From contig NZ_JARVZZ010000001.1 of NCBI RefSeq assembly GCF_029846115.1, positions 3,224,001 to 3,288,000 of the forward strand: a stretch of DNA of 64,000 nucleotides. The letters run 5' to 3'. Within the stretch, counting starts at the first letter, position 1. Every line of letters begins with the position of its first letter. Below are positions 45,716-64,000 of the stretch, in pieces. The translations under genes and the position numbers were made by a program. The notes below the pieces were generated by a model. It saw only the letters and a program-made list of their open reading frames with translations, was not told the DNA's origin and searched no databases. Origin of the DNA: Serratia marcescens. Lineage in GTDB: Bacteria; Pseudomonadota; Gammaproteobacteria; Enterobacterales; Enterobacteriaceae.

Positions 45716-45762
45716 ACCTTCTCCTGAATCATTTTTTATTTATTGCTGCAGTGTTTTCCTGG

Positions 45763-45820
45763 GAGTCGGATGAGCAAAGCAAAAGGGACAATCAAGAATG
45801 CGATTTTTTATCATTTTCAT
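45763..45820 (-). promoter_or_regulatory. FecI-dependent fecA promoter
   Basis: On the minus strand GATTGTCC (45793-45786) and CGACTC (45768-45763) are 17 bases apart. As I recall it, the E. coli fecA promoter has the same two blocks at the same distance. A Fur-like GAAAATGATAA lies just upstream (45818-45808). Confidence 0.5.
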
Positions 45821-45830
45821 TTAAAAAGAT

Positions 45831-47308: not shown

Positions 47309-47343
47309 GGTTTTCGCATTGCTGGTCAAAAAGATGCGCGGAT

Positions 47344-47363
47344 GATAATTGAGAATGGTTATC
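47344..47363 (-). promoter_or_regulatory. Fur box upstream of fecI
   Basis: GATAATTGAGAATGGTTATC closely fits the Fur consensus of GATAAT repeats and lies 36 bases before the fecI start, as in E. coli, where Fur-Fe(II) represses fecIR. Confidence 0.85.
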
Positions 47364-47736
47364 GTTTCAAGTTTCGCCGTTGCCCTCAGGCCGGAATGCG
47401 GCACCCAGGTGTGGCGCTGAAATAAACCGGGTGGCCGTGAAGATATTCGTTTGCCCCGTAAAGGTGCAGCGGCACGGTGTTATTCCGGCAAGCAAACGGT
47501 TGCTATTAGCCTGCCGTTGAAGGCCGCCGCACGGTTTATTCTTTTTCATCGGCTGGTTTTCTTTGTTTAATTAATATCACTCTGTTTTTACATGAAAATA
47601 TATTTTATCACCGGCTGTTGGCACACGGCTTGCTATGCTTAACCCGGTCTTTAATTTGGGGTAACAAAAGGCATTGCTTCATCGGCGCAGATGATTACGC
47701 GGGTGAGCTTGGCCGGTCGTCACAAGGAAGAAAATA
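47364..47736. other. Intergenic region between fecI and guaD
   Basis: About 370 bases with an A/T-rich block at 47560-47620. It should contain the guaD promoter. No credible coding sequence or strong repeat was seen. Confidence 0.4.
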
Positions 47737-49059: not shown

Positions 49060-49499
49060 TTTCATTCGCGGTGTTGGCGCAAAGGCATATTGGAATACGC
49101 CGACACCGCGTGGCGACAATTTTAACGATAAGGAAGTGGAAGCCTTGATAGCGTTATTGCTGCACACGCTGTGGATGAAAAGCAGACAATGGAAGGGCGG
49201 GGCATGATTATTTATTGAACATGACGCGATGTAGTATGAATACGGTTATTTGGTTAGGAGGCTCTTTATTGGTTTTTTATGAATATACCTAGTGATATAC
49301 AGCCATGTTGCTGGATAAGTGCGTAAAAAACATTGCATTTCTTTGGGGTGCTCTATATCATAATGAGAATAATTATCTTTACGATATCACTACTTAAAAA
49401 GCAACGGGCTTGTTTTAGTCACTGTTGCTGTTTTTTCAGTGTACTTCCGCATTTTACGAGCCAGGATTGGCTTGAGCTTTATTTCTGGAAAGGGATTTC
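49060..49499. other. A/T-rich boundary region of the microcin island
   Basis: The 440 bases are markedly more A/T-rich than the genes to the left, which marks the edge of the accessory region. They contain the Fur-controlled promoter given separately and a leader of about 130 bases for the exporter genes. A frame at 49333-49569 runs into the adaptor gene in another frame; I do not regard it as coding. Confidence 0.5.
49333..49377 (+). promoter_or_regulatory. Promoter with overlapping Fur box for the microcin export genes
   Basis: TTGCAT (49333-49338) and TATCAT (49356-49361) are spaced by 17 bases. CATAATGAGAATAATTATC (49359-49377) matches 16 of 19 positions of the Fur consensus and covers the -10 and the expected start. 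Strong evidence for iron-repressed expression. Confidence 0.8.
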
Positions 49500-50786
49500 A
49501 TGCGTGATTTGTTTCGACAGGAAGCCACGGATCATCAGCGGGCGAAATGGGCGGGTAAGGCCTTATTAATAAACGGCTTGCCCGCCTGGTGCTTTGGTCT
49601 TTTGTCGTTTTTATTTATTCTTGTTTTCCTCTCTTTTCTTATATTCAGTCATTATACGCGCCGCATTAATGTTTATGGTGAAATCACCACCTTCCCCCGC
49701 TCAGTCAATGTGTTTGCACCCCAGCAGGGTTTTATCTCGGAACGCTTCGTCGAAGTGGGCGACGTGGTTAAAAAAGGTCAGCGTCTTTATCAGATTGATG
49801 TCAGCCGGGTGACGGATAACGGGAAAGTGAGCGCCAATACGCGCCTGGCGCTGGAAAACCAGTTAAAACACGTCGACAGTATCATCCTTAAGTTGCAAGA
49901 CAACAAGCGCATGACGCTGGAAAATCTACGCGCGCAAAAAAAACAGTATGAATTGGCGCACATGCAGTCCAAACAGCTGTTGGATAACGCACGAGAAGGG
50001 GTGGCATTTGCTCAGGACAACATGCGTTCCTATAAGGAATATCAGCAGCGCGGTCTGATTACCAAAGACCAGCTTAGCGGACAAACCTATTCGTTTTATC
50101 AACAACAAAGTCTGTTCCAAAACCTGCATAGCCAACACATTCAGGAATCGTTGCAAATTACGAATTTGGAAAGCGACATCGTTACGCGCGCGGCAGATTT
50201 CGATAATCAAATTTCACAGTACCAGTTTCAGCGTAATGATTTGCAACGGCAGTTAGCGGAAGCCGATGCCAGCGGCGCATTGATCGTGAACGCCCCGAGC
50301 GATGGCCGCATTGAATCTCTCAGCGTTACCCCGGGTCAGATGGTCAATAGCGGTGACAGTCTGGTACAGATTATTCCACGTAATGGCGCGATTTATCAGC
50401 TAGTTTTATGGTTGCCGAACGCCAGTGTGCCGTATGTGTCAGCGGGGGACGCCATTAACATTCGTTATGACGCTTTCCCCTATGAGAAGTTTGGCCAGTT
50501 TCCCGGCAGGATAGAAAGCATCGCTTATGTGCCGGCCTCCATGCAAGAAATGTCAACTTACAGCAGTTCTCCCGTGCATCAGCCCAACGCGCAAACGGCA
50601 TCTTATTACAAGGTCACCGTTTCCCTGGATGAAACGCATATCAGTTATCAGGGCAAGGCGTTGCAGCTCACTAACGGCATGCGGGCTCAATCCACGCTGT
50701 TTCTGGAAAAAAGGCCTTTATATCAATGGATGTTCTCGCCTTTCTACGATATGAAAAACAGCCTGATGGGGCCAATCAATGACTGA
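49500..50786 (+). CDS. Microcin export adaptor, HlyD family (MchE/CvaA-like)
   Basis: Membrane-fusion protein of 428 residues linking an ABC exporter to an outer-membrane channel, presumably TolC. A cytoplasmic tail is followed by one helix (about 28-52), a barrel-sandwich domain split around a coiled coil (residues about 115-260, KQYELAHMQSKQLLDNAREG), and the closing IVNAPSDGRIESLSVTPGQMV lipoyl-like half. The opening FRQEATDHQRAKWAGKALL resembles that of MchE/CvaA proteins. It overlaps the transporter gene by eight bases and starts 130 bases after the Fur-box promoter. Confidence 0.9.
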   Translation: MRDLFRQEATDHQRAKWAGKALLINGLPAWCFGLLSFLFILVFLSFLIFSHYTRRINVYGEITTFPRSVNVFAPQQGFISERFVEVGDVVKKGQRLYQIDVSRVTDNGKVSANTRLALENQLKHVDSIILKLQDNKRMTLENLRAQKKQYELAHMQSKQLLDNAREGVAFAQDNMRSYKEYQQRGLITKDQLSGQTYSFYQQQSLFQNLHSQHIQESLQITNLESDIVTRAADFDNQISQYQFQRNDLQRQLAEADASGALIVNAPSDGRIESLSVTPGQMVNSGDSLVQIIPRNGAIYQLVLWLPNASVPYVSAGDAINIRYDAFPYEKFGQFPGRIESIAYVPASMQEMSTYSSSPVHQPNAQTASYYKVTVSLDETHISYQGKALQLTNGMRAQSTLFLEKRPLYQWMFSPFYDMKNSLMGPIND

Positions 50787-52878
50787 ATCTTATTTCGACA
50801 CGCTAAAGGGCAAACTCAATTTGTCGCTGCGCCGCAAAGTGCCGCAGATCCTGCAAACGGAAGCCTCGGAATGTGGGCTCGCCAGTCTGGCGATGGTATG
50901 CCATTACCATGGCTTGCAAATCGATCTGTTTAATTTGCGCAGCCGCTACGGCTTTTCTTCGCGCGGGGCGACGCTGTCCGCGCTGATTGACATCGCGAGC
51001 GCACTGAAACTGCAATCCAGAGCGTTATCGCTGAATATCGATGAGCTTAAGGCATTGAAAATGCCCTGTATTCTGCATTGGGACATGAAGCATTTCGTGG
51101 TGCTTGTCAGTGTCAGCCGAGGGCGGGCGGTGATCCATGATCCTGCCTTTGGCCGTAAAGTGCTGGGGTTGCATGAACTGTCGCGGCATTTTACCGGCGT
51201 AGCGCTTGAGCTATGGCCAGACAGTGAATTTCAGCCGATCAAACAGCAAAGCAGATTGCGTTTTCGCAAGCTGATGAGCAATGTGCGCGGCCTCAAAGGG
51301 GCCTTGCTAAAGATCTTCTGTCTATCGATCGTGATTGAAGCGGTTAATCTGCTGTTGCCCGTCGGTACGCAGTTGGTCATGGACCATGTGATTCTGGCCG
51401 GCGATCATGATCTTTTAGCGCTGATATGCATAGGGTTGCTGTTCTTTATTTTATTCCGTACCGGCGTATCCATGTTGCGCTCGTGGATCTCTATCGTCAT
51501 GGGCGCGTTGATAGACGTGCAATGGAAGGCGGGAGTATTCGATCATCTGATGAAATTGCCGCTTTCCTTCTTTGAGAAGCGCAAGTTGGGTGATATTCAA
51601 TCCCGCTTCGGCTCATTGGATACGATAAGAGCGACTTTCACTACCAGCATCGTCAGCAGTATTATTGATGGCATCATGTCCGTAGGCGTATTTATCATGA
51701 TGCTGCTCTATGGCGGCTGGTTGGTGTGGGTGGTGCTCGGCTTTACGGCGATATACGTTATTCTCAGGCTGTCGACCTATCAATATTATCGGCAGCTGTC
51801 GGAAGAGCAGTTGGTGAAAGGGGCGCGAGCCGGGTCTCATTTCATGGAAACGTTGTATAGCGTCAGTACGTTAAAGGCGTTGGGGTTATCTGAAACCCGT
51901 TCGCAGTATTGGCTGAATCTAAACGTAGAAACGATCAATGCCGGTATCAAGCTGACCAAATTAAACATGATGTTTGGCGGCCTGGGGGCGTTTATCGCCA
52001 CTTGCGATCAGGTGATCATCCTTTGGCTCGGCGCAGCATTGGTCATAGACAATCAAATGACGATCGGCATGTTTATCGCGTTTAACGCCTACCGCGGGCA
52101 GTTTTCGGAGCGTGCCAGCAGCCTGATCGACATGATGCTTCAGCTGCGAATGTTGAGTTTGCATAATGAAAGGGTGGCGGACATTGTGCTTTCGTCACCG
52201 GAATCGCAAATGCCCGCGCGCCAGCTCTTCACAAAAGGCAACGCCGCGGAGCTTCAGGTCCGGAATCTGCGCTACCAGTATGACCGCTTGGCGAAACCCA
52301 TTATCGCGGATTTGAATCTCAGCATTGCCGCGGGAGAAAGCGTGGCGATTGTCGGTCCCTCCGGCGCGGGTAAAACCACGTTGATGAAGTTAATGTGTGG
52401 GCTGCTGTCGCCGGATGAAGGGGCCGTGCTGGTCGACGGTATGGATATCAGCAACATTGGCGTTAATAATTATCGCCAATGCATCGCTTGCGTGTTGCAG
52501 GATGACAAGCTGCTGGCGGGGTCTATCGCTGAAAATATTTCAGGATTTGATGCCGAAATGGATCTGAAGCGTATTGAGGCGTGCGCACGGCGTTGCAATA
52601 TGCATGATGATATTCAAAACATGCCGATGGGCTATGAAACATTGATCGGCGAACTGGGGGGAAGCCTTTCTGGCGGGCAGAAACAGCGCTTATTGATAGC
52701 CCGTGCGCTCTATCGTCGCCCCAGCATTCTGTTTATGGACGAAGCGACCAGCCACCTGGATCTAGATAATGAAACCCATATTAACCGCGCTATTTCACAA
52801 CTGAACATTACCCGCGTGATTATTGCGCACCGTCCGTCGACGATTGCCTCTGCGGATAGAGTCATTCGACTCGGGTAA
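50779..52878 (+). CDS. Bacteriocin-processing ABC exporter with C39 peptidase (MchF/CvaB-like)
   Basis: 699 residues. It cleaves double-glycine-type leaders and exports the mature peptide. The N-terminal C39 peptidase has catalytic Cys32 (EASECGLASLAM), His105 (HWDMKHFVVLV) and Asp121 (VIHDPAFG). Six membrane helices lie between about 160 and 450. The C-terminal ATPase has GPSGAGKTT, LSGGQKQR and ILFMDEAT. All catalytic residues are present, so it should be active. It converges on the precursor operon, whose two small products carry the matching leaders. Confidence 0.94.
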   Translation: MTESYFDTLKGKLNLSLRRKVPQILQTEASECGLASLAMVCHYHGLQIDLFNLRSRYGFSSRGATLSALIDIASALKLQSRALSLNIDELKALKMPCILHWDMKHFVVLVSVSRGRAVIHDPAFGRKVLGLHELSRHFTGVALELWPDSEFQPIKQQSRLRFRKLMSNVRGLKGALLKIFCLSIVIEAVNLLLPVGTQLVMDHVILAGDHDLLALICIGLLFFILFRTGVSMLRSWISIVMGALIDVQWKAGVFDHLMKLPLSFFEKRKLGDIQSRFGSLDTIRATFTTSIVSSIIDGIMSVGVFIMMLLYGGWLVWVVLGFTAIYVILRLSTYQYYRQLSEEQLVKGARAGSHFMETLYSVSTLKALGLSETRSQYWLNLNVETINAGIKLTKLNMMFGGLGAFIATCDQVIILWLGAALVIDNQMTIGMFIAFNAYRGQFSERASSLIDMMLQLRMLSLHNERVADIVLSSPESQMPARQLFTKGNAAELQVRNLRYQYDRLAKPIIADLNLSIAAGESVAIVGPSGAGKTTLMKLMCGLLSPDEGAVLVDGMDISNIGVNNYRQCIACVLQDDKLLAGSIAENISGFDAEMDLKRIEACARRCNMHDDIQNMPMGYETLIGELGGSLSGGQKQRLLIARALYRRPSILFMDEATSHLDLDNETHINRAISQLNITRVIIAHRPSTIASADRVIRLG

Positions 52879-52960
52879 CGTCAGCTTCGCTTTACCTGGC
52901 CACTTCACCCCGATATTTTCGCTACGTCAACCGCACAGCTCACCCGGTGGTGAGTCCATG

Positions 52961-52988
52961 AAAAAAGGGTTATCACAATGATAACCCT
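52961..52988 (-). terminator. Rho-independent terminator of the microcin precursor operon
   Basis: A perfect ten-base stem (AGGGTTATCA/TGATAACCCT) with a three-base loop is followed on the minus strand by six T. It lies about 75 bases beyond the last precursor gene and after the convergent exporter gene. Confidence 0.88.
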
Positions 52989-53063
52989 GGCATGAAGTGA
53001 CGCTTTAGGCGCTGAAGCCAATGTTAACCGCTGAGGTCAACCGCGAGGCTTGCAGGGCCCCGA

Positions 53064-53351
53064 TCAGTTCGAATCGGTATTGTTGTTGTTCCCCCACATG
53101 GTACCGCCGCCGTTGCTCCCGCCCCAGGGAATGCCTGATGGGCCAACTGAGCCGGGGGCACGATCGCCGGTGACATAGTTACCGACAGCACCGCCGACAA
53201 TGGTGCCGACAACGCCGCCCGCCACGCCGCCGATAGAGCCGATTCCGCCGCCGATCGCTGCGCCGACAGTTTCTGCGGAAACCGTCAATGTACCGCTGCG
53301 ATCTCCTGCACCGGAAATGATTGAACACTCTTCAGAGGTAAGATTGCGCAT
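53064..53351 (-). CDS. Class II microcin precursor 1
   Basis: Protein of 95 residues. The leader MRNLTSEECSIISGA resembles the microcin V and E492 leaders, and cleavage after GA would leave an 80-residue peptide beginning GDRSG. The core is rich in glycine with many GxxxG spacings (IGGGIGSIGGVAGG), as in pore-forming class II microcins. The C-terminus is Gly/Asn-rich and ends NNNNTDSN, matching the ending of precursor 2. AAGGAG lies well placed before the ATG at 53351. It is the last gene of the operon, before a strong terminator. I cannot name it as a known microcin. Confidence 0.85.
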   Translation of the reverse strand: MRNLTSEECSIISGAGDRSGTLTVSAETVGAAIGGGIGSIGGVAGGVVGTIVGGAVGNYVTGDRAPGSVGPSGIPWGGSNGGGTMWGNNNNTDSN

Positions 53352-53393
53352 ACTTGCTCCTTAGTAATTAAATTTTAAAATAAGCCACGTTGA

Positions 53394-53561
53394 TCATGCT
53401 GAGCGTTGCCCGCGATCGCTATTGAGCAATTTATGCGTGGCGATAACGGCAAAGGCGATAAGGGCGTATTTCAAGAAACGATTGAGGCTGAAATAATCCG
53501 CAGTCGTGCCAACAACAAGCCCGATTAAAATGGCGAACAATACAATGAATGATTTTTTCAT
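53394..53561 (-). CDS. Probable microcin 1 immunity protein
   Basis: A 55-codon gene. The product has a hydrophobic segment at residues 4-20 (SFIVLFAILIGLVVGTT), a second at about 29-43 (FLKYALIAFAVIATH), and a short basic tail. Immunity proteins of class II microcins are small two- or three-helix membrane proteins encoded just upstream of their precursor, as here: it ends 42 bases before precursor 1. Its own ribosome site is poor (AGGAAG lies too far upstream), so translation may be coupled. Function inferred from position and topology. Confidence 0.65.
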   Translation of the reverse strand: MKKSFIVLFAILIGLVVGTTADYFSLNRFLKYALIAFAVIATHKLLNSDRGQRSA

Positions 53562-53585
53562 ATGATGGATACGAATCTTCCTACA

Positions 53586-53846
53586 TTAGTTACTGTCGGC
53601 AGGATTGTTCGTCGATGTTTGTTTATTGCCACCCAACATGGATTCCACCATTTTGCCAGCGGTATAGGCGGCACCACCGATAACTGCACCGGCAACAGCG
53701 CCTGGGCCGGCACCGACGCCGCCAGCCATGGCGCCGGTCATCGCGCCACCAACCGCGCCGGCAGCGACGGCCCCGCCCAATTCCGCATAGCTGAAATCCC
53801 CAGCTGCCGCAATAAAGTTCACTTCATTAAGTGTAAGCTCTCTCAT
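53586..53846 (-). CDS. Class II microcin precursor 2
   Basis: Protein of 86 residues. The leader MRELTLNEVNFIAAA is of the MRELTxxEV type; cleavage before GDFSY would give a 71-residue peptide. Both precursors therefore start GD. The core is small-residue rich (AVAAGAVGGAMTGAMAGG), suited to membrane insertion. The tail ends NNPADSN, aligning with NNNTDSN of precursor 1. AAGGAAG precedes the ATG at 53846. The leader matches the neighbouring C39 exporter class. A general glycine-zipper protein is the alternative, but leader and context argue against it. Confidence 0.86.
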   Translation of the reverse strand: MRELTLNEVNFIAAAGDFSYAELGGAVAAGAVGGAMTGAMAGGVGAGPGAVAGAVIGGAAYTAGKMVESMLGGNKQTSTNNPADSN

Positions 53847-53861
53847 AATGACTTCCTTATA

Positions 53862-54047
53862 TTATTGGTTTTTGGTTTTTGCAGTTTTCCGATACCAGAA
53901 AAATGCCACTAGCAAGGTTGAAAAGATAAAGGATTGAATGATTGTGCTGGTAAACCTCCTGTCTTCGGAAAAAAATAACGAATAAAAAATATCCATAAAT
54001 GTGTAGTAAAAGCAGAACAAAAAAATCCAACTGCTTGGTAATTTCAT
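53862..54047 (-). CDS. Probable microcin 2 immunity protein
   Basis: Protein of 61 residues (62 if the adjacent upstream ATG at 54050 is used; GAGG is better spaced for 54047). Two hydrophobic segments, about residues 6-26 (SWIFLFCFYYTFMDIFYSLF) and 36-51 (IIQSFIFSTLLVAFFW), flank a charged SEDRR turn. The C-terminus is basic (YRKTAKTKNQ). It ends 15 bases before precursor 2, repeating the membrane-protein-then-precursor order of the first pair. It lies 43 bases after the second NRPS gene. Role inferred from position and topology. Confidence 0.7.
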   Translation of the reverse strand: MKLPSSWIFLFCFYYTFMDIFYSLFFSEDRRFTSTIIQSFIFSTLLVAFFWYRKTAKTKNQ

Positions 54048-54090
54048 CATTGCCTCGATAGGTTTGATTGATAGGAGGTATCTTCTCGCG

Positions 54091-57000
54091 TTATTCCAAT
54101 GATGTTGATAACGCGCGCAGCAATTGCGTCAGAGCTCGAAGAAGTTGAGCGTTGTTTAAAATGCTGTAATGCGTTTCTGCACAATAACTGAGTTGAACGC
54201 CATGCGAGGATTGCATCTCCCAGCGTTGTGCAAGCTGGGGGTGTTTACGCTGACGTTGCTGGCTAAGCCAAAGCGTCAGCGGTATCGCTATCTGCGGCAG
54301 GGGGCCGGCGTTATTCGTCAGTTCGAACGATTTTTTCAGCGCCCAACAGAAGGTTTCGGCATGTTCCAGCGTGATCTTCTCCGCAAGCACGCTCTGATTC
54401 AGCGCATAGTGCATTTTTATCTCGTCGGCGAAGCTGTCTATCGCATTCGTTTCTTGATGCCGACACAAATGGCGCGCAATACCGAGAGAGTCGAACAGAC
54501 TGAGGTAACTTTGCGCCACGCTGAAACGTCGCTTCACGGCGGTCCGTTGGGCGGGCAAACCGCTGTCGACAACCAACGCATGCGCAAAGGGCGCGCCTTG
54601 TTCCGTGGCCTGCGCCGCCATATGGACAGCTAATTGGCCGCCCAATGACCAGCCGGCGATAACGGCCGTGCCGCGTTTGGCACGCGGTATGGCCGCCAAA
54701 TGGGAGGCGGCCAATCGCTGCAGGGTGAGTGTGTCGTCGGCACCGGGTGCGGCCAACCCCGGGCTGGCGATGGTGATGATGTTGGCGCAGGCGCAAAGCT
54801 GTTTTGTCCACTTTGCATATTGATGAACCTGGCCGCCGGCGCCATGCACCAAATACAAGGTGGGCAGAGAGGGGCGATCGGCTGAGCCGGACAGCATCGA
54901 TAACGGCAGGGGCGCATTCTCGCGCAGACGCTCGGCAAGTTTATCGAGCTGTGAGTAGCCGAGGATTTCCGCCAGGGTTAATTCCACATTAAGGGCGCGC
55001 TTGATGTTGCCCAAGAACGTGATGCCGGAAAGCGAGCTGCCGCCATTGCTGAAGAAGCTGGCATGTGGGTCGATCTTGTCTGGAGTACAGCCTAACGTAT
55101 CCGCCAACAGCTCTCGTAGTAGCATGAGTTCCGCGGACGCGGCGGGTGCAACCTCGCTGGCCTGACTCCGTTCGGTGCCTGGCGAGAGCAAGGTGCGATC
55201 CAATTTGCCGTTGCGTGAAAGCGGGAAACGTTCAATGAGGTGATAGCGGGATGGCGCCATATACGCGGGCAATGCGGCCGTAACCTGCTCGCGTATTCTT
55301 TGCTCTGCCTGGACGCTGGCTTTCCCCGCCTCGGTCAATGTGATGTAGGCTTCCAGATGCGGTGTGCCGTTCCCGGTTTCATCGCGACAGACGACACACG
55401 CTTCAGCGACCAGTTCGCTGCTTTTGAGCGCGAATTCGACGTCACCCAATTCGACGCGAAAACCCTGCAGTTTCACCTGTTGGTCTTCGCGGCCGAGAAA
55501 CTCGATGTAACCGCTGCGATGCCAACGGCCGCGATCGCCGGTGCGGTATATGCGTTCTCCGGTGGTTGGGAAAAGCACAAAGCTGCCGGCGGTGGTTTGG
55601 CTATCGCGCCAATACTCGCGGGCAACGCCAACGCCACCGATATAAATGTCGCCGGTAACGCCGAAACCGCACGGCTCGAGTTTTTCATTCAACACCCACA
55701 TGCTCTGATTTGGCAATGCGGTTCCATAGGGGATGGCGTTTCTGTAGTGCGTATCTCGTGTAACCGGATGATAAATTGACCATATTGCCCCTTCAGTGGC
55801 ACCGCCAAGGCTGGTGATGGTCGCGTTGGGGCAAAGCCGATGTGCCTCGGCGATCAGCTGTGGAGAGATGCGATCGCCGCTCAGCCAAATATGCCGCAGT
55901 TGAGGCAGCGACAGGATGTTTTCTTGTGCGCAATATTGCACCAGCATTTGCAAGATGGCGGGAACCGAGTTCCAGATGCTGATTTGCCGCTGGCGTATCG
56001 CATTTAGCCATGCTGACGGCTCTTTCGCTTCGTGCGGCGATAGCACCGTTACTGATGCACCGGCTAGCCAACTGCCGAACAGGTCATAGACCGATAAATC
56101 GAAGGCCAGATCGGCGAGTGCCAATACGTTGTCACGATGAGAAACGTTAAACAGTCGGTTCATGGTCAGCAAGGTATTGGTGACGGCCCCCTGTTCCATA
56201 GCCACACCTTTTGGCGTACCGGTCGTCCCCGACGTATAAATGACATAGGCGAGCGCTTCCGCTTCGCCTGGCGGGAAGGGCGCTGTGTCTAGGACATGAG
56301 GGGAAAACAGCGCCTCCAGATCCTGAACGCGGATAGTCTGCGGATAGCGGGCGTGATGGTGAGCCTGGTTGCTCAAAACCCAGGCGCAACCTGATATCCG
56401 CATAATGGCCGCTGCGCGGGCATCCGGCAATCCTTCGGCCAACGGCAAGTAGGCCCGTCCGGCGAGGATCACGCCGAGCGCCGCAATAGCCTGATGAGCG
56501 CCACGTGGAAGATCGATGGCGATGAGCGCGCCTGGGGCGGTATGGGCGATCAGCCAATGCGCCACGAGGCCGGCGTGCCGCAACAGCCGATCGTAATGCC
56601 ACACGCTATCGCCCTCGTACAACGCCGGGCGATCCGCCTGCTGGAGAGCAGTGTGTAACAGCCGATCGGAAAGAGGTTGCCGCAAGGATGCGGGCATCGC
56701 CTGTCCGACGGAGAGCTGACGCAATTGCCGGTTATCGGCCATTGACGTCAGCGAATAGTGGCCGACGGCCCGCGAGGGATCGCAGGCAATTTGCTGCAGC
56801 AGTAATGCGTAAGCTTGCGCCAATCCGTTAATGCGCTCCGGCGTAAACAGCTTGGCGTTGTATTGCCATTCCAACTGAATGCCCTCCACGCTGGAAATCA
56901 CTTCCAGAACCAGATCAAACTTGGGCGGCGCATAGCGTCTCGGCAGGGTGTTAACCTGCGCACCGCCAATATTCAGCTCATTGCTTTTGCGATGTTGGCA

Positions 57001-58236
57001 GACGAACATGATTTGAAAAATGGGGTGAAACTTGCCGCGCGTGGGCTTGAGTTGTTCAACCAGGTAAGAGAATGGCAACCCTTGATGTTTGAAAGCGCGC
57101 GCAAATTTATTTGCGTTCTTTTGCAGCAGCGTGGTGAAACTGTCGTCGCCAGTGATGATGAATTGGTGGGCGATCGTGTTGACGAAGCTGCCCACGGCGT
57201 CGTTTAACGTCGGCTCGTTCCTGTTGGCGATCGGGCTACCGATGACTACACGCTCCGTCGCAGATTCTCTGGCAATCAGTAACGCGAAGGCGGAGTGCAA
57301 CAGCGTAAACAGCGTCGTACCGTTATGTTTGGCTAACTGGGCCAGGGCCGACTGCAGTTCGTTCGTCAGCGATGTTCTGACGATATTCTGTGTTTTGCCT
57401 GCCGCGGTGATGGCGATATCGTATTCAAGCGCGTGTTTTTCCGGCGCACCATCCAGTTCATCGCGCCAAAACGCCATGCTGTCATCGACATTGGCGACGG
57501 CGAGGAAAGGGTCTTCAAGATAGCGGAAAAATGCCTGGCCGTTGTCATAATGACCATGCTCTTTGTGCACGTGATAGCCACGGCTCAGTTCATCCACCAG
57601 CAAATTGGCCGTCCAGCCGTCGACCACGCAATGGTGAAAGGTCAAGAACAGATAGTGGTGCTGCGCGCTCTTTCTCAAGATCCGGCAGCGCAGGGGATAC
57701 TCGGCACCGAGATCAAACGGAATCGTGCACTGGGCGTTAAGCGCCGCCAGCATACTTTTTTGCTGCTCCTCACTATTCAGCCCGCTGATGTCCTCGAGGC
57801 TGTGTTCGAAAATGGTTTCATCAGGATGCACGATGTCAACGGTGATGGTTTCCCCGTCTAGCCGATAGCGGCCGCAAAGCGCACCGTGCCGCTTGAGCAG
57901 TTTTTTCAGCGCGGTGAGTAAACGCGCGGGTTCAAAGGGCCCCAGGATCTCTTTGGCGATCGGAATGTTATACAGCGGGCTGTTCTTGGTGAAGTTTTCA
58001 TACAGCCACAGGTATTGCCCCGCGTAGTGATTGACGGTGTAACAAGGCTTCTCCCCGGTGTCTCGCTCTGCATTATCTGGCGTACAAACAGATAAAAATG
58101 CGGTGATGTCTTCCTGCACCGCACTGAGTGCGGCGGCGTCGACATGCTCGATGGCTTGGCGTCGAGGCGACAGCTCGCCGAATGTGGCTCCCTGTTTCGC
58201 CATTTCCATCAGATTGATCAGGCCGATGACGCTCAT
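54091..58236 (-). CDS. NRPS, termination module: docking-like segment-C-A(Cys)-PCP-TE
   Basis: Nonribosomal peptide synthetase of 1381 residues. Residues 1-50 resemble an N-terminal TubC-like docking segment. The condensation domain (about 65-490) has HHCVVDG at 201-207, a normal HHxxxDG motif, not the DxxxxDxxS of cyclisation domains. The A domain (about 525-1015) has YTSGTTGTPKG at 667-677. Its hand-read specificity code is D713 L714 Y717 N756 W784 S786 L810 I818 W819 K1011 (DLYNWSLIWK), one residue from classical cysteine codes. The carrier serine is S1068 (SNGGSSLS). The thioesterase has GWSLGG with S1197, D1224 and H1356. It overlaps the upstream NRPS gene by one base (TGATG). Confidence 0.92.
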   Translation of the reverse strand: MSVIGLINLMEMAKQGATFGELSPRRQAIEHVDAAALSAVQEDITAFLSVCTPDNAERDTGEKPCYTVNHYAGQYLWLYENFTKNSPLYNIPIAKEILGPFEPARLLTALKKLLKRHGALCGRYRLDGETITVDIVHPDETIFEHSLEDISGLNSEEQQKSMLAALNAQCTIPFDLGAEYPLRCRILRKSAQHHYLFLTFHHCVVDGWTANLLVDELSRGYHVHKEHGHYDNGQAFFRYLEDPFLAVANVDDSMAFWRDELDGAPEKHALEYDIAITAAGKTQNIVRTSLTNELQSALAQLAKHNGTTLFTLLHSAFALLIARESATERVVIGSPIANRNEPTLNDAVGSFVNTIAHQFIITGDDSFTTLLQKNANKFARAFKHQGLPFSYLVEQLKPTRGKFHPIFQIMFVCQHRKSNELNIGGAQVNTLPRRYAPPKFDLVLEVISSVEGIQLEWQYNAKLFTPERINGLAQAYALLLQQIACDPSRAVGHYSLTSMADNRQLRQLSVGQAMPASLRQPLSDRLLHTALQQADRPALYEGDSVWHYDRLLRHAGLVAHWLIAHTAPGALIAIDLPRGAHQAIAALGVILAGRAYLPLAEGLPDARAAAIMRISGCAWVLSNQAHHHARYPQTIRVQDLEALFSPHVLDTAPFPPGEAEALAYVIYTSGTTGTPKGVAMEQGAVTNTLLTMNRLFNVSHRDNVLALADLAFDLSVYDLFGSWLAGASVTVLSPHEAKEPSAWLNAIRQRQISIWNSVPAILQMLVQYCAQENILSLPQLRHIWLSGDRISPQLIAEAHRLCPNATITSLGGATEGAIWSIYHPVTRDTHYRNAIPYGTALPNQSMWVLNEKLEPCGFGVTGDIYIGGVGVAREYWRDSQTTAGSFVLFPTTGERIYRTGDRGRWHRSGYIEFLGREDQQVKLQGFRVELGDVEFALKSSELVAEACVVCRDETGNGTPHLEAYITLTEAGKASVQAEQRIREQVTAALPAYMAPSRYHLIERFPLSRNGKLDRTLLSPGTERSQASEVAPAASAELMLLRELLADTLGCTPDKIDPHASFFSNGGSSLSGITFLGNIKRALNVELTLAEILGYSQLDKLAERLRENAPLPLSMLSGSADRPSLPTLYLVHGAGGQVHQYAKWTKQLCACANIITIASPGLAAPGADDTLTLQRLAASHLAAIPRAKRGTAVIAGWSLGGQLAVHMAAQATEQGAPFAHALVVDSGLPAQRTAVKRRFSVAQSYLSLFDSLGIARHLCRHQETNAIDSFADEIKMHYALNQSVLAEKITLEHAETFCWALKKSFELTNNAGPLPQIAIPLTLWLSQQRQRKHPQLAQRWEMQSSHGVQLSYCAETHYSILNNAQLLRALTQLLRALSTSLE

Positions 58237-61200
58237 CAGTGCACTCCTTCCATGTTGACGTCGATAGCGTTCCCTGTTCGACCGCTTTTATTCGGGCGTT
58301 TGTCGCTGTGGGCGGAAATCAAATTCAGCCAATGCGACAAGCTACACAACTGCACTCCCGGGTTTCTCCGCTGTGCCATTGTGAAGGCGGCGCGATGATC
58401 GAAATTCTCGCCATCATCGAAACCGAAGATCCTCAGTACGCAGCCGTTCAATCGCTCATTGGCCGTATCGAACCGGATGTGCGGGAAATAGCCAAGCCGC
58501 GCGGAAAAGGCTATCAACTCAGTAACGCCGGCGTCGACAGCTTGGCGGCGCGAATCGGCTTTATGCAGCAACAGCAGTCGCTCATGCCGAAAATCGCGCA
58601 GCAGGCCTTGCGTGAGTCTGGCGCCGCCGACCGTATCATGCATAAAGATCATGTAGTTAACTCGGCCGGGCAGGGCGTGCAGCAGGGCCGAAAGCGCATC
58701 AAGCCAACTGGCATATTGCGTGGCTTCGTTCGGTACGTTGAATATGGCCGCGTTCAGCGGCCATTCAGCATGCAATGGCAACGCCTGCGGTGACAGAATG
58801 TCCACACCGTGTTTGTCGGCGAGGGCGGCCAACAAAAGCCGTTCATCTGCGCCTTCGGGTGATTGAATAAACAGCCGGCTGCTGGCCGGCGCCTCGGTTG
58901 ACAGACGGCGGCCGATAGCGCATCGGATGTTCAGATGCTGCGGATCCAGGCCATAGCGTGCATGGGCCAGCTGCGTTAGGTGTCGGCAGAAATCGGTGAG
59001 TCTCGGATGTTCAAAAATGTCGCTCAGGTTCAGATCCAACCGACAGTGGGCGTTAAGCGCGTTAATGATTTTTATGGCCTGCAGCGACTCACCGCCGAGC
59101 GTGAAGAAGTCGCCATCGTCACTCCCCAGCGTCGCCAGCCAAACCTCATGCACCAGGGTGTTGAATGTCGTCGAACGCAATTCCCGTGTGGGTTCAGGCA
59201 TCCGGGATTGTCTTTCCAGGGTGCGATAATCAATCTTGCCGTTAGCCAGTTTGACCAGCGGCGTTGGATGATGCACGAAGCGCTGAGGAATATGTGCACT
59301 GGGCAGTTCGCCGTACAGCGTTCGGCGCATTGCCTCGCTGAGCGGCTGCCGGCTGTGATAATGCGCATACAGTTCCGTTCCCGCGTCGCCGCTTTTGGCC
59401 AGTACGGCAATTTCGACAATTGCGGGCAACCGGGCCAGACAGCTTTCTATCTCACCCATATTGACGCGTTGCCCGGCGATTTTCGCTTCACGAATTTTGC
59501 GGCCAAGGAACAGCAACTGCCCATCCTGGCGCTGGCAGGCGATATCGCCGGTACGAAAGGCGGGCATGGGATGGCCGTTAACCTCAAGGGTGACGAACTT
59601 TTCCGCGCTCAGCGTTGGCTGATGCAAATACCCCAGGCCGACGGTCGCTCCGGCTATCAGTAATTCGCCGCTGCAGCCGAGCGGCAACAGCCTGAGATCC
59701 TCGCCGACGATCGCCGTGTATATACCGTCCAGCGGTGCGCCTATCGTCACGGCGGTGCCATCGTTTTTGATTTCCGCGGCCGTCGCCACCACGGTTGTCT
59801 CGGTTGGGCCGTAGGAGTTGAATAACTTTCTGCCTTTGGGATAGTGCGCGAACCAGCGTTCTTTGGATCGCGGTGAAAGGCTTTCGCCGCCGATGATAAC
59901 TGTAGTGACGGCCGGCGGCAGCGTCTGTTCACCACCGGAGGCGAACAGCATCTCATTAAAGTAGGCGGTCGGCAGATCCAACAGGCTGATTTGATGATCG
60001 GCGCAGAATGTGAAGAACGCGGCAAAGCTGTGCTTGACGGCCTCGGGGGCGATACACAGGTGGGCGCCGGCACCCAGCGTCATGAAAATTTCTTCAATGC
60101 ACGCATCGAAATGCAAGGGCGCAAATTGCAACACGCGTTCGTGCGGTTGAATGCCATAGCATGTTATCGCCGCATCGACAAAAACGCTGAGAGCATGTCG
60201 GGCGCCTATCACGCCTTTAGGCATTCCCGTCGAGCCAGAGGTAAACATGATATAGCCGGTTCCGTCCGGGAACGCCGGCGCCTCAGTCGCTGTTTGCCGG
60301 CGAAACACGGTGAAGTGCGCGAAATCCGCCGGCATATCGAGTGTCGATGCGCGCCAATGCGCCAATGCGTCAGGTTCGGAATGAAAGGAGGGAAGTGTGC
60401 GATCGGTAATCAGGATAGCGTCGCTAAATTGTTCAAGTCGCTGACGATGAGCCGCGCCATCCCCTTTGGCATTCAGGTTGACGAACGGCATTTTCAACTG
60501 CAGCGCAGCAAGCATGCAGATGATGGCTTCCGGCCCTTGCGGCAAGTCGAGCAACAGCACGGTGTTCGCGGCACGGGCGGGGGCGAGGGCATCGGCCAGC
60601 GCACGCCACTGTTGCTGCAAAACGGCATAAGACAGCGCTCTTAGCGACAACGAAGCGTGTGCGGGCGTGAGGATCGCCGTGCGTTGCGGCGCTTGAACGA
60701 CGGCACGATCGATACGTTGCATTATATCGACCACGTTGTCGTTGGCTGCTTTACCCTGCAGCGAGAGCGGGAAACGTTGTCGCAATGCCGCGACAGAAAG
60801 ATTTTCCGGGTTGTTGTACAGCAAGGCGCATAAGGTCTGTATCCCCTGGCTGTGCCGCACCAGGCTGGCCGCATCGTAAAGCCCTGAGTCGGCATCGATC
60901 TCCAGCCGAAGCGTTTGGTTATCGAGATCGGGACGCATGTTGAAGACCAGATCCTGCGCGCCTCCTGAGCGTAAATTACGGATTTCGCTGCGCTGCGCGG
61001 AAGAAAATGAGGCTGCCGCTTCAAAGGGAATGATATTGACCACGATGTTGAACAGCGGCGAGCGGCTGGTGACGCTCCGCAGACTTTTTATCTCTTCGTA
61101 ACGGAATGCTTGATGTTTTTTGAGTTGCCTGAGTATGTGTTCAATGGTTTGCGCCAACTGTCGGCATGAGGCCGTGTCCTCAATATCGAGAGTCAAGGGA

Positions 61201-62042
61201 ACAACGTTGGTCTTGCAAGTCAGCGCCTGCCTCGTCAGGGAGTCTGTTCGCGCCATCATTGGGACGCCGATCGTTTGCTGTTTCTCGCCGGTACACAAGT
61301 ACAAATATGCCATCACTGCCACGAAAGTGCGCGCCAGCCAAGAAGGGTGCCCGGTTTGCAGCGCAAGGCGCTCGGCAGGATAGGGCAACGACGTCACATG
61401 GCGGATCGTCTGTCCCGAAGGAATATTGGCGCAGGCTAATGTCATCGGGTCTGGCAGTGAGGCGCTGGCCGTTTGCCAAAAATGTCGGTCCGCTTGATAG
61501 GCGGCTGACTGTTTGTACTCAGATTCAGCCCTGAGCAAGGCATCGATCGCAGGTACGTCTTGCGGTTGCTGCGTTTGGCCTCGGTAGGCCTGCGCCACTT
61601 GATGGATCAGCAAATAAGTGCCGTAACCATCAAGCAGCAGATGGTGGCTGCAGAAATACCACAGAAAGCGTTGCTCACCCAGTCTGATGATTTTTTGTCT
61701 GAATAACGGCGCAGCGTTCAACGAGAAGGGGCGCTTAGCATCCGCTTCCATTAATTCGATAGCGGTGGCCATATCGTTGGCGTGCTGTGAAAGATCTACC
61801 CATTCCACTGAGATGTTGGCGGTGACGGGATATTGATAAGGCGTGCCGTTATCTTCATCAAACAAAACGTGCAACGTCGGCGTTTGGCTGATGACGTGAT
61901 GAATGGCACGTTTCATTCTTGCGATATCGAGAGTGTGATTTATTTCGACATATTCCGCGATATTATAGCTCGATTTGTCATCGCCGATTTTGGTGCCATA
62001 GTAAAATCCCGTCTGTGAATCCAATAGTTGATGCTTGCTCAT
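58236..62042 (-). CDS. NRPS, first visible module: C-A-PCP plus unknown C-terminal domain
   Basis: Nonribosomal peptide synthetase of 1268 residues. A complete condensation domain (about 1-425) has HHLLLDG at 133-139, so an acyl or peptidyl donor is expected from another protein. The A domain (about 440-940) has FTSGSTGMPKG at 600-610 and YGPTE at 744-748. Its hand-read code is DAEAIGSVVK (D646 A647 E650 A693 I716 G718 S743 V751 V752 K936), which resembles lysine-type codes such as that of bacitracin synthetase. The carrier serine is S986 in LGGESL. Residues about 1030-1268 form an extra domain I do not recognise; no GxSxG is present. Product unknown. Confidence 0.9.
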   Translation of the reverse strand: MSKHQLLDSQTGFYYGTKIGDDKSSYNIAEYVEINHTLDIARMKRAIHHVISQTPTLHVLFDEDNGTPYQYPVTANISVEWVDLSQHANDMATAIELMEADAKRPFSLNAAPLFRQKIIRLGEQRFLWYFCSHHLLLDGYGTYLLIHQVAQAYRGQTQQPQDVPAIDALLRAESEYKQSAAYQADRHFWQTASASLPDPMTLACANIPSGQTIRHVTSLPYPAERLALQTGHPSWLARTFVAVMAYLYLCTGEKQQTIGVPMMARTDSLTRQALTCKTNVVPLTLDIEDTASCRQLAQTIEHILRQLKKHQAFRYEEIKSLRSVTSRSPLFNIVVNIIPFEAAASFSSAQRSEIRNLRSGGAQDLVFNMRPDLDNQTLRLEIDADSGLYDAASLVRHSQGIQTLCALLYNNPENLSVAALRQRFPLSLQGKAANDNVVDIMQRIDRAVVQAPQRTAILTPAHASLSLRALSYAVLQQQWRALADALAPARAANTVLLLDLPQGPEAIICMLAALQLKMPFVNLNAKGDGAAHRQRLEQFSDAILITDRTLPSFHSEPDALAHWRASTLDMPADFAHFTVFRRQTATEAPAFPDGTGYIMFTSGSTGMPKGVIGARHALSVFVDAAITCYGIQPHERVLQFAPLHFDACIEEIFMTLGAGAHLCIAPEAVKHSFAAFFTFCADHQISLLDLPTAYFNEMLFASGGEQTLPPAVTTVIIGGESLSPRSKERWFAHYPKGRKLFNSYGPTETTVVATAAEIKNDGTAVTIGAPLDGIYTAIVGEDLRLLPLGCSGELLIAGATVGLGYLHQPTLSAEKFVTLEVNGHPMPAFRTGDIACQRQDGQLLFLGRKIREAKIAGQRVNMGEIESCLARLPAIVEIAVLAKSGDAGTELYAHYHSRQPLSEAMRRTLYGELPSAHIPQRFVHHPTPLVKLANGKIDYRTLERQSRMPEPTRELRSTTFNTLVHEVWLATLGSDDGDFFTLGGESLQAIKIINALNAHCRLDLNLSDIFEHPRLTDFCRHLTQLAHARYGLDPQHLNIRCAIGRRLSTEAPASSRLFIQSPEGADERLLLAALADKHGVDILSPQALPLHAEWPLNAAIFNVPNEATQYASWLDALSALLHALPGRVNYMIFMHDTVGGARLTQGLLRDFRHERLLLLHKADSRRQAVDAGVTELIAFSARLGYFPHIRFDTANERLNGCVLRIFGFDDGENFDHRAAFTMAQRRNPGVQLCSLSHWLNLISAHSDKRPNKSGRTGNAIDVNMEGVH

Positions 62043-62069
62043 CGGCTCATCCCTGATGTTTATTTTTCT

Positions 62070-62510
62070 TTATTTTTTTACCGTCATCAGTTTGCCCGTT
62101 CGGCGGGAACGCCATACAACCGTGCGACGTTCTGCGATTGGGTAAACTGTTTTAAGGTGTTCCAAACATAAATGCGCGCTGCCTGGCTTGCAGCAAAAGT
62201 CTAAAATACACAGCGTGCCGCCCTCATCCCATTCTGAGTTATGCAGAAGAAACTGCGGATCGTTAATAAATCGACCCAGCGTCTCATCTCTCAGGTAGGC
62301 CCAGGTTATATATCCTAACGGATTATCCAAATGATCGAATAATATTTTGAATTGATTTTGATTAATCGCTTCCTGAGTCCATAGCTGCAACGTTTTTATA
62401 TGGTACAAACTGTAATTTTTATTCATCAACATACAGCTAACGGCGAAGCCCAGGCTCTCGTATTGACTGAACTTACTTTTACCCTGCTGGTTTTCTTTGA
62501 TAAAACTCAC
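62070..62510 (-). CDS. HlyC/MchD/MceI-like acyltransferase
   Basis: Protein of 146 residues resembling toxin-activating lysine acyltransferases (HlyC) and the microcin enzymes MchD/MceI, which with MchC/MceJ attach a siderophore to the microcin C-terminus. GYITWAYLRDETLGRFIND aligns with the HlyC core, and CILDFCCKPG with the region of the essential aspartate (HlyC D92). Where HlyC has catalytic His23 (LGHVSW), this protein has LGFAVS, so that residue appears replaced. Start is GTG at 62510 with GAGG seven bases upstream. It lies 18 bases after the large upstream gene and 27 before the NRPS. Family by eye, supported by context. Confidence 0.75.
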   Translation of the reverse strand: MSFIKENQQGKSKFSQYESLGFAVSCMLMNKNYSLYHIKTLQLWTQEAINQNQFKILFDHLDNPLGYITWAYLRDETLGRFINDPQFLLHNSEWDEGGTLCILDFCCKPGSAHLCLEHLKTVYPIAERRTVVWRSRRTGKLMTVKK

Positions 62511-62528
62511 GAAATATCCTCAGCGTTA

Positions 62529-64000
62529 TTATTGTAATACGTTGATCGCCTGACGCTCGAAACGATCCAGATAGATTTGCAACTGTTCGCTGATCTCGCT
62601 GAATTCACCGCGCCAGCCGGCAATTTCTTGAAAAATCACTTCACGGCGCATGAACGCGCGGGAGCCCAACCTTCTGGTGACGGTCTGCTTCATCGCCTGT
62701 TGTAATCCGGCGGCGGTTTGATCCGCTGATGTTTCCTGAAGGTACTTCGCGTATAACCGCTGGAATGCCAGAGAAAATCTCTCTTCCGCTGTCGTACCCT
62801 GTTGTTCGGCGGAAACCCTGACGGGCGAGTCGATGAGCCGATGTAACAGGGCAATCGCCGGATGAGCATTCCCCTGGCCCAGACCTTGTCGACGGCTAAA
62901 GATGCCGGGAGCCAAATCGAACATTTTTTGCAAGCGTTCGCCTAAGGCGAACCAGTCGGCGGTGAGAGGCAGGCGTTGTAAAAATGCAGAGTCAAAACCC
63001 GCCATACCGAGATTATCCAGCAGGCAGGCTCGCGTGTAGGCCATATTAAAGGCCGCGCCGATGCCTTGGTGCGCTGCCGCGAGAAATGCCGGGCCAAATT
63101 GATGCTTGGCTAAATAAAAAGCGAGATCTTGCACGCCTCTCAGCAACAAAGGGGCGTCTTCGTTGAGTTTGTTGTGCTGAATGTAGCTGCGGCCGGGATC
63201 GCGACGTTCTGCGGGAAAAACACTGCGAACACCATGAAAGTCCAGCAGCCTGCCGGCCATATCGCAATTGGAGGGTGAGGTCATCATCACCAAATGGCGG
63301 GTACGGCAGTAAGCTATCTGCGTCGCAAGGCGCCGTGCAAGCTCGCAGAGCCCGTAGAAGGCTCGTTCTTCCTGCGGCAACGCCAACCAGCGCGCAGCGT
63401 CAAACTCAGAGGGACGAGGCAGAAAGGTTGGTGCGGCGACAATGAGCTTTTTGGTCCGCTCAATATCCGAAGGCTGCCTTTGCATCGCATCATGAGGATG
63501 ATAGTAGGGCGCGCGGCAAAAATGTGCAGGGCGCACGACGGGTTCGCGCACCAGCAACGCCTTGCGGTTATGGACGCCTCCCGCCGATGCAGGAGAGAGG
63601 GTGGCGATGGGGTTGTCGGTCAGCAAGATCGCCTTATTGGGCACGGCACCGTAAGGCAGCAGTTTGGCCATGACGTTTCCCCATAATGCCTCCAATACTG
63701 CGCCGGTCATTGTCAACTCGCCATCGACATGCTTCGCCCCTTGACCGACTAACGCATTGGCTCCGATGCCTTTAACCTGCCATCGCCCATCAAAGCCACA
63801 GCGTGCGCCGCCGCCGTTGCGCGAAATAGCCCCGCCGCCATAACGTTCGGCGAAAAAGACTTTTTCATCGTTTAAGAGCGGCGTGCCGTCATCAAAAATA
63901 GCATGACGATTATTTTCTTCGATGAGATAGCTGGTCTCATTTTTCAGTTCGCTCTGCTCTGCAGGGTTTAATCCGTTGTGCCAGAGTAATTGAGAACCTG
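62529..64000 (-). CDS. Large protein in the MchC/MceJ position, 5' end outside the window
   Basis: About 490 residues are visible and the frame stays open to the window end, so the N-terminus is missing. The visible part contains a glycine-rich YGGGAISRNGGGARCGFDG, then WQVKGIGANALVG, EALWGNVMAKLLPYGAVPN and a long helical C-terminal half. I cannot assign a domain with certainty. In microcin H47, M and E492 clusters the HlyC-like enzyme is preceded by a large partner of about 500 residues (MchC/MceJ), and the size, order and tight spacing here agree. The ATG near 63710 is internal, not the start. Naming is by context. Confidence 0.6.
   Translation of the reverse strand, partial: GSQLLWHNGLNPAEQSELKNETSYLIEENNRHAIFDDGTPLLNDEKVFFAERYGGGAISRNGGGARCGFDGRWQVKGIGANALVGQGAKHVDGELTMTGAVLEALWGNVMAKLLPYGAVPNKAILLTDNPIATLSPASAGGVHNRKALLVREPVVRPAHFCRAPYYHPHDAMQRQPSDIERTKKLIVAAPTFLPRPSEFDAARWLALPQEERAFYGLCELARRLATQIAYCRTRHLVMMTSPSNCDMAGRLLDFHGVRSVFPAERRDPGRSYIQHNKLNEDAPLLLRGVQDLAFYLAKHQFGPAFLAAAHQGIGAAFNMAYTRACLLDNLGMAGFDSAFLQRLPLTADWFALGERLQKMFDLAPGIFSRRQGLGQGNAHPAIALLHRLIDSPVRVSAEQQGTTAEERFSLAFQRLYAKYLQETSADQTAAGLQQAMKQTVTRRLGSRAFMRREVIFQEIAGWRGEFSEISEQLQIYLDRFERQAINVLQ

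Follow-up and report, generated by a model that had tools for sequence, protein, structure and literature searches.

Siderophore microcins act as naturally occurring Trojan-horse antibiotics. Known systems use a glucosyltransferase to prepare enterobactin, which MceIJ or MchCD couples to the Ser/Gly-rich tail of the microcin. The siderophore microcins described in the available part of PMC7472721 carry an enterobactin-derived siderophore. Here we describe a microcin island of Serratia marcescens (assembly GCF_029846115.1, genome size 5.22 Mb) that carries a pair of nonribosomal peptide synthetases (NRPSs) next to homologues of MchC and MchD. It lies in, and extends just past, a stretch of 64,000 nucleotides (contig C1, NZ_JARVZZ010000001.1, positions 3224001-3288000), the whole of which is called the window below. 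We propose, with a probability of roughly 55%, that the island encodes a class IIb-like microcin system in which the NRPS pair builds a short tag, likely one that binds iron, that is joined to the microcin C-termini by the MchC-like and MchD-like enzymes.

An NRPS-made conjugate is not a new inference. An earlier note on this DNA, made from the sequence alone, was aware of no published microcin locus with these components, but one had been described: Gerc et al. (2014) proposed that an NRPS pair of S. marcescens Db10 makes the group added to a microcin (PMC4117218), and Parker et al. (2026), in the part of their paper that is available, drew the locus in Db11 and SM39 without interpreting the NRPSs (PMC13101503). 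The present analysis adds a comparative case and a concrete predicted product.

The HlyD adaptor and C39 exporter lie on one strand and the remaining island genes on the other, in the order 96-aa (amino acid) membrane protein, precursor 3, MchC-like protein, MchD-like protein, NRPS2, NRPS1, small membrane protein, precursor 2, small membrane protein, precursor 1. The features are listed below by window position, with the evidence in brackets; beyond the window end, positions refer to stretch L003, in which a position equals the window position minus 62000. C, A, T and TE stand for condensation, adenylation, carrier and thioesterase domains.

49048..64000, running 884 bases on, no strand: microcin-NRPS genomic island (flank comparison, lower G+C)
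49363..49379, + strand: Fur-box-like site 5' of the exporter operon (17-base consensus with 2 mismatches)
49500..50786, + strand: HlyD-type membrane-fusion adaptor (PF13437, 66.3 bits)
50779..52878, + strand: C39-peptidase ATP-binding cassette (ABC) exporter (PF03412, 113.7 bits; PF00664; PF00005)
53064..53351, - strand: microcin precursor 1, 95 aa, C-terminus NNNNTDSN (precursor 2-like leader, Pectobacterium relative)
53394..53561, - strand: small membrane protein, putative immunity to precursor 1 (position only)
53586..53846, - strand: microcin precursor 2, 86 aa, C-terminus NNPADSN (weak MccV Pfam match, tail motif)
53862..54050, - strand: small membrane protein, putative immunity to precursor 2 (position only)
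54091..58236, - strand: NRPS1, 1381 aa, N-terminal extension-C-A-T-TE (Pfam; code DLYNWSLIW, predicted Cys)
58236..62042, - strand: NRPS2, 1268 aa, C-A-T plus 240-aa C-terminal extension (Pfam, NCBIfam; code DAEDIGSVV, Lys-like)
58236-58964, - strand: C-terminal extension of NRPS2, 240 aa (no Pfam match or confident fold)
62070..62510, - strand: MchD/MceI-like HlyC-family acyltransferase (PF02794, 42.2 bits, cut-off 25)
62529..64000, start at L003:2055, - strand: MchC/MceJ-like protein, modelled SelO/YdiU fold, 508 aa (homology, AlphaFold2/Foldseek)
L003:2136-2423, past the window end, - strand: microcin precursor 3, 95 aa (NCBIfam E492-group match)
L003:2420-2710, past the window end, - strand: 96-aa membrane protein, putative immunity (follows precursor 3)

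Co-occurrence of the NRPS pair with MchC and MchD

The exporter and adaptor, the HlyC/MchD-like acyltransferase, the large protein beside it and the two NRPSs that the earlier note had recognized are all borne out by these matches, and the large protein, which the window end cuts, is MchC-like over its whole frame. It is identical at 182 of 503 aligned positions (36%) to the E. coli protein named MchC, and 92% identical to 'MchC protein [Serratia marcescens]'. Homologues of MchC/MceJ and MchD/MceI, which belong to the definition of class IIb microcins, are thus present.

The neighbourhood comparison suggested in the earlier note came out in favour of co-occurrence. Among the eight genomes with readable DNA and an intact MchC of the island type, NRPS1 and NRPS2 directly adjoin MchD and MchC in seven, which span three genera: our own, G003, G004, G005, G016, Intestinirhabdus alba (60-73% protein identity to the island) and Photorhabdus asymbiotica (43-67%). 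This supports the view that the NRPSs belong to the conserved core of the microcin system and are the likeliest source of the conjugated group. Conserved adjacency thus sustains the note's idea of dedicated NRPSs, while the conjugation itself is something that we infer.

The C-terminal extension of NRPS2 was found in 5 of 30 Serratia genomes, the same five that have an intact island-type MchC; MchC of any type occurs in 8 of the 30, namely these five, one eroded and two with another MchC type. The eroded Serratia island holds an MchC fragment without NRPS. In wider surveys, our own genome was the single one of 394 Enterobacterales genomes with the extension, which also turned up in six protein clusters, all of 1257-1274 aa, among about 5.8 billion proteins (candidates of 0.55-1.75 times the query length). 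Such searches would miss orthologues that lack the extension or are as diverged as that of Photorhabdus (29-32% in the extension). The 394 genomes also gave seven MchC matches besides our own, all partial and distant (E values 3e-20 to 3e-40); these were excluded from the counts, and frames were listed for L034, L039 and L040. Around Intestinirhabdus, 9 of 391 genomes have MchC: I. alba, two at the coordinates of G016 and G007, and six of another type, for which the surroundings were fetched (only 3.9 kb for one). L012 and G005 were counted once, as were L016 and G007. As a side observation, the eroded island, at the same site in S. proteamaculans (L031:11465-15163), retains precursor 3 and the membrane protein, has a truncated exporter and MchC, and has lost the NRPSs and MchD.

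The borders of the island were set by comparison with seven fetched sites from the 25 Serratia genomes that lack the NRPS pair. Homology to these island-free sites ends at 49044-49047, where an amidohydrolase gene finishes, and restarts at 64884-64900, a short way ahead of dcp, a peptidase gene, so that the island extends from 49048 to about 64884 in window-equivalent positions. Between the flanks, the empty sites hold 0.2-4.6 kb of other DNA. In 2-kb steps, G+C is 50-58% inside the island versus 57-66% outside, and megablast searches of plasmids and of E. coli genomes gave no match to this DNA. Two neighbours were considered as island members and rejected. Dcp (L003:3009-5213) is counted among possible modification genes in the available part of PMC13101503. 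It has one full-length match of at least 91% identity in 25 of 30 Serratia genomes, is split in a 26th and borders the empty sites; these data make it a core flank and speak against a role in modification. A Fec-like TonB receptor with FecR/FecI-like genes (43364-47404, - strand) lies left of the island edge. Since the receptor (43364-45715) is common to the fetched island-free genomes, being present at all seven empty sites (cut by the stretch end in L087), it belongs to the core.

These results bear on an alternative in which the product of the NRPS pair is a small siderophore or metallophore that stays free, the pair lying here because it and the microcins both serve iron-limited competition, and MchC and MchD add something else, such as a host enterobactin-like siderophore. 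It would fit that Pectobacterium has a microcin, MchC and MchD but not the pair, that a free product can be released by a terminal thioesterase, and that the host has its own 2,3-dihydroxybenzoate (DHB) pathway. On the other side, the long frames of the island include no receptor or esterase (by inventory, with no family search), and the nearby TonB receptor is core. Furthermore, the pair was not found apart from MchC and MchD; NRPS pairs without microcin genes, which the earlier note would have taken as contrary evidence, were sought and none was seen within the limits of the extension searches. Nor was a full-length IroB-type enzyme that could prepare enterobactin found in the host, and the classic serine-rich tail is missing. 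We consider a free product rather unlikely.

The lack of a full-length match to an IroB-type glucosyltransferase also separates the island from class IIb microcins, in which this enzyme (MceC, MchA or McmL) is expected in the cluster or genome. Searching with one query sequence, we found a full-length IroB-type match in none of seven NRPS-pair genomes and, in the same search, in three of seven other genomes (G755, G482 and G526; 71-75% identity). The remaining matches were partial (20-44 bits) and are taken for other glycosyltransferases. In view of this negative result, the tag is probably not attached through C-glucose as in microcin E492, and we judge conjugation through C-glucosyl-enterobactin unlikely.

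Other MchC loci differ in the candidate donor gene. An IroB-like glycosyltransferase lies near MchC in four of them (L042, L043, L076 and L077), and a single EntF-like NRPS lies immediately 5' of MchC in three (L032, L033 and L073), with the Ser code DVWHFSLID in L032 and L073; in L075 the NRPS frame is split. Neither gene was seen in L015, L018, L074, L080 or L081, and L078 is too short. MchC loci thus seem to have acquired a nonribosomal donor on two or more occasions. According to a tree built from 20 MchC proteins, MchC phylogeny broadly follows donor-gene type: the NRPS-pair type and Pectobacterium form one clade (100/99), and the glycosyltransferase type, with several loci lacking that gene, falls in another (85/91). 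The EntF-like rows lie outside both clades and not all together, and the Pseudomonas row is a long branch.

Some of these loci are of interest in themselves. L073:5511-15635 (G526) is a full microcin locus in which the EntF-like Ser-specific NRPS overlaps the MchC start by 4 bases, followed by MchD, HlyD, a C39 exporter, a small membrane protein and a precursor whose tail is of the classic Ser/Gly-rich kind. G526 also has a full-length IroB-type gene, at a great distance from this locus. In Serratia G021 and G023 (L032:5732-11930 and L033), the EntF-like NRPS, MchC and MchD lie beside ABC-transporter genes that are MacAB/FtsX-like by eye. No C39 exporter match was found in the fetched stretches, so these MchC and MchD proteins possibly act outside a microcin context. 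Pseudomonas thivervalensis (L018:5457-13374) has a distant MchC with MchD, exporter genes and a 105-aa glycine-rich precursor-like frame with a GG leader.

Precursors, tails and export

The island has the C39-peptidase exporter, HlyD adaptor and leader-bearing precursors that characterize class IIb systems. Both precursors of the earlier note are real and have matching leaders as it claimed; its count of two was short by one, as the third lies past the window end. Precursors 1 and 2 are also related in body (E value 1e-6 in a comparison of seven sequences), and precursor 3 had no body match to them in that comparison. Against the E492-group profile NF051486, precursor 3 scored 63.5 bits (cut-off 50), with residues 1-79 aligned to profile positions 1-88, so that the match stops before the tail; precursor 1 reached just 16.9 bits and precursor 2 had no match. 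The match of precursor 2 to the MccV Pfam family is weak (21.5 bits, below the cut-off of 27). In body, precursor 1 shares 76% identity across 79 residues with a Pectobacterium precursor that ends in GGRGSN and occurs without the NRPS pair.

None of the three precursors has the class IIb tail of about ten Gly/Ser-rich residues. Precursors 1 and 2 end in DSN, as listed, precursor 3 ends in STPDSSN and the Intestinirhabdus precursor in NYDDSTN. When the region after residue 16 was shuffled, a DS(S/T)N end arose in 0.01-0.08% of shuffles per precursor. These features suggest that an E492-type body has acquired a new tail along with new tailoring genes.

Alternatively, these peptides may be unmodified class IIa microcins or members of an undefined subclass, with modification genes that act little or not at all, which is the interpretation of Parker et al. 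(2026). None of the 93 S. marcescens microcins covered in the available part of that paper has a canonical class IIb tail (PMC13101503). However, MchC, MchD and both NRPSs are present in three genera with conserved NRPS motifs, the new tail is common to the three precursors of one island, and the body of precursor 3 is of the E492 type. We think this reading very unlikely.

A Fur-box-like site precedes the exporter operon, at a match quality for which a mean of 0.06 sites is expected in the window, and a site with 2 mismatches lies 5' of the exporter in all five Serratia loci tested. No equally good site was found 5' of the exporter in Intestinirhabdus, Photorhabdus or Pectobacterium, and a search 5' of the main operon led nowhere. 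The putative immunity protein of precursor 1 is 84-89% identical across the intact Serratia loci compared.

Predicted tag and its proposed attachment

The two NRPSs are colinear, and their reading frames overlap (TGATG in Serratia, 4 bases in Intestinirhabdus). The condensation, carrier and A10 motifs of both proteins and the thioesterase motif of NRPS1 are kept in all three genera. Adenylation codes were read from a MAFFT alignment to EntF. NRPS1 has the code DLYNWSLIW in all three orthologues (Serratia, Intestinirhabdus and Photorhabdus), together with the conserved NGK lysine, as expected of a Cys domain; DLYNWSLIWK is listed among the signatures of Cys-activating domains, linked to oxidised residues (PMC12283262, seen in part). 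The NRPS2 code is DAEDIGSVV in seven of eight sequences and DAEDIGTVV in the eighth. It does not fit the Arg pattern (Ala322, Thr/Asp331) given in the same part of PMC12283262, and a search of the open-access literature showed no exact published match to DAEDIGSVV. Our best guess for its substrate is Lys, from its likeness to Lys codes. By eye we suspected a TubC-type docking domain at the N-terminus of NRPS1, which Pfam did not report.

The condensation domain of NRPS2 appears to be of the starter type. In a tree of 16 such domains, it split off with those of E. coli EntF, our own EntF and other first condensation domains (100/100), and that of NRPS1 grouped with elongation domains (97/96). 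The best NCBIfam match of NRPS2 in the three genera is the myxochelin synthetase MxcG (598, 548 and 536 bits, versus 301, 289 and 260 for EntF), which loads DHB. A DHB ligase scored above its curated cut-off in our genome and in all eight others searched, but it does not discriminate, since it also occurs in genomes without the NRPS pair. Our genome encodes a second catechol-type NRPS of 2843 aa (L058:1677-10208, C1 about 3.456-3.464 Mb), probably the chrysobactin-synthetase-like gene mentioned for Db10 in the available part of PMC4117218.

One further possibility is that the condensation domain of NRPS2 loads a lipid, so that the tag would be a fatty-acyl dipeptide and the microcins would be lipopeptide conjugates with membranes, rather than siderophore receptors, as their target. 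Among the domains on the starter side is indeed the first condensation domain of our own 5931-aa NRPS, an assumed lipopeptide synthetase, on a long branch whose position the tree leaves unresolved. The MxcG match in three genera, though below cut-offs, and the Fur-like site 5' of the exporter in Serratia argue against this reading, which we regard as unlikely.

The MchC-like protein may activate the microcin. MchC has been described as a distant relative of SelO (PMC3281104, seen in part). Our AlphaFold2 model of the 489 residues within the window has a mean confidence score (pLDDT) of 86.3 and matches YdiU/SelO in Foldseek with E values down to 5e-10, TM-scores of 0.49-0.57 and 14-16% identity, which points to a SelO/YdiU fold. 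An alignment of 36 sequences, one labelled SelO by its source, has 30 invariant positions, including K95, E122, N263 and D272.

HlyC relatives are lysine acyltransferases. In the conjugation pathway that we favour, the starter domain of NRPS2 would load DHB from the host catechol pathway, and NRPS2 would add Lys and hand over to NRPS1, which would add Cys and release the product through its thioesterase. The tag would then probably be catechol-Lys-Cys. With ATP, the SelO-fold MchC-like protein would activate the carboxyl end of the ...DSN tail, and the HlyC-family MchD-like protein would move the activated tail onto the NRPS product, perhaps onto the Lys amine, which by analogy is the simplest, if speculative, substitute attachment point. 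Each of the three microcins would be joined in this way before export, and the tag would let it enter target cells by way of a catechol-siderophore receptor. More tentatively, and with less confidence than in conjugation as such, the loci of Serratia, Intestinirhabdus and Photorhabdus could form a distinct subclass of conjugated microcins that bear an island-built 2,3-dihydroxybenzoyl-Lys-Cys ('thio-chrysobactin') in amide linkage to the ...DS(S/T)N tail, with no glucose. A parallel enterobacterial subclass would use its own EntF-like Ser-specific NRPS, each type of MchC taking a different nonribosomal partner.

Several observations weigh against an NRPS-made conjugate or against details of its predicted structure. 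Pectobacterium aroidearum (L015:10001-16031), the eighth genome of the association sample, has MchC (46% identity), MchD, an exporter and a precursor, but no NRPS in the flanking 10 kb to the left or right, and its genome gave no full-length match to IroB. An island-type MchC can therefore exist without the NRPS pair. The broken MchC locus of Klebsiella indica likewise shows no NRPS, and among 12 Photorhabdus genomes the island-type MchC is intact in one and a 37-residue fragment in one more. The Photorhabdus precursor ends in RYDDR, not DSN. The extension search was length-limited and did not list the known orthologues of I. alba and Photorhabdus, so that the extension may not be exclusive to these loci. 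The extension itself matches no known fold or role: it has no Pfam match, an AlphaFold2 pLDDT of 58.6 and no Foldseek match at an E value of 0.001 or better. As for the chemistry, the cited Cys signature concerns oxidised (Ox) residues and Pfam finds no Ox domain in NRPS1, the MxcG and EntF matches of NRPS2 are far under the curated cut-offs, and the branching within the starter side of the condensation-domain tree does not separate an aryl from a fatty-acyl starter. Two of the eight other genomes with a DHB ligase, Pectobacterium and the eroded G007, lack the pair.

Comparison with known systems

The locus reported in Db10/Db11 and SM39 (SMA1568-1575, with the putative microcins SM027, SM017 and SM051) has, by its description, the same gene composition as the island. 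It is presumably the same locus as SMDB11_1570-1575, tabulated as 'bacteriocin' in the available part of PMC4391916. The three microcins predicted for loci of this type occur in 43-56% of microcin-bearing S. marcescens assemblies (PMC13101503, seen in part), so the system may be common in this species. In their available parts, the papers on Db10, Db11 and SM39 contain no substrate analysis, relatives outside S. marcescens, shared tail or test of the NRPSs. The open-access literature, to which our search was confined (subscription papers lay outside it), yielded no experimental test, substrate, distribution or tail analysis of the NRPS-tag idea.

If the proposed conjugation is correct, this system, unlike known siderophore microcins, does not borrow its tag from an ordinary iron-scavenging pathway, and a ribosomal-nonribosomal hybrid is made from one island. 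MchC/MchD ligation would then accept varied partners, new receptor targets would be opened, and microcin maturation could be regarded as modular ligation of a peptide to a siderophore. Activity screens of such microcins without the modification genes would assay incomplete molecules.

Three described groups resemble parts of the island. Like members of the SelO/YdiU pseudokinase family, the MchC-like protein models on YdiU/SelO, but with 14-16% identity and TM-scores of 0.49-0.57 it is distant from them, and it forms part of a microcin-maturation subfamily. Like the catechol NRPSs of chrysobactin and myxochelin (CbsF and MxcG), NRPS2 has a starter-type condensation domain and a Lys-like code, with MxcG as its best match; unlike them, the pair is part of a microcin island, its second module has a Cys code, and its NRPS2 carries a C-terminal extension not seen elsewhere. 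The closest likeness is to the class IIb microcins E492, H47, M and I47 (mce, mch, mcm and mci), with which the island shares the C39 exporter, the HlyD adaptor, precursors that have short leaders and small membrane proteins encoded beside them, homologues of MchC/MceJ and MchD/MceI, a precursor of the E492 group and a Fur-like site. In contrast to these systems, it has an NRPS pair, no full-length IroB-type glucosyltransferase was found in the cluster or genome, no esterase is among its long frames, and its tails end in ...DS(S/T)N instead of the Gly/Ser-rich sequence. On the tail and on IroB the island falls outside the formal definition of class IIb, and it is by the likeness of its working that we file it with the siderophore microcins.

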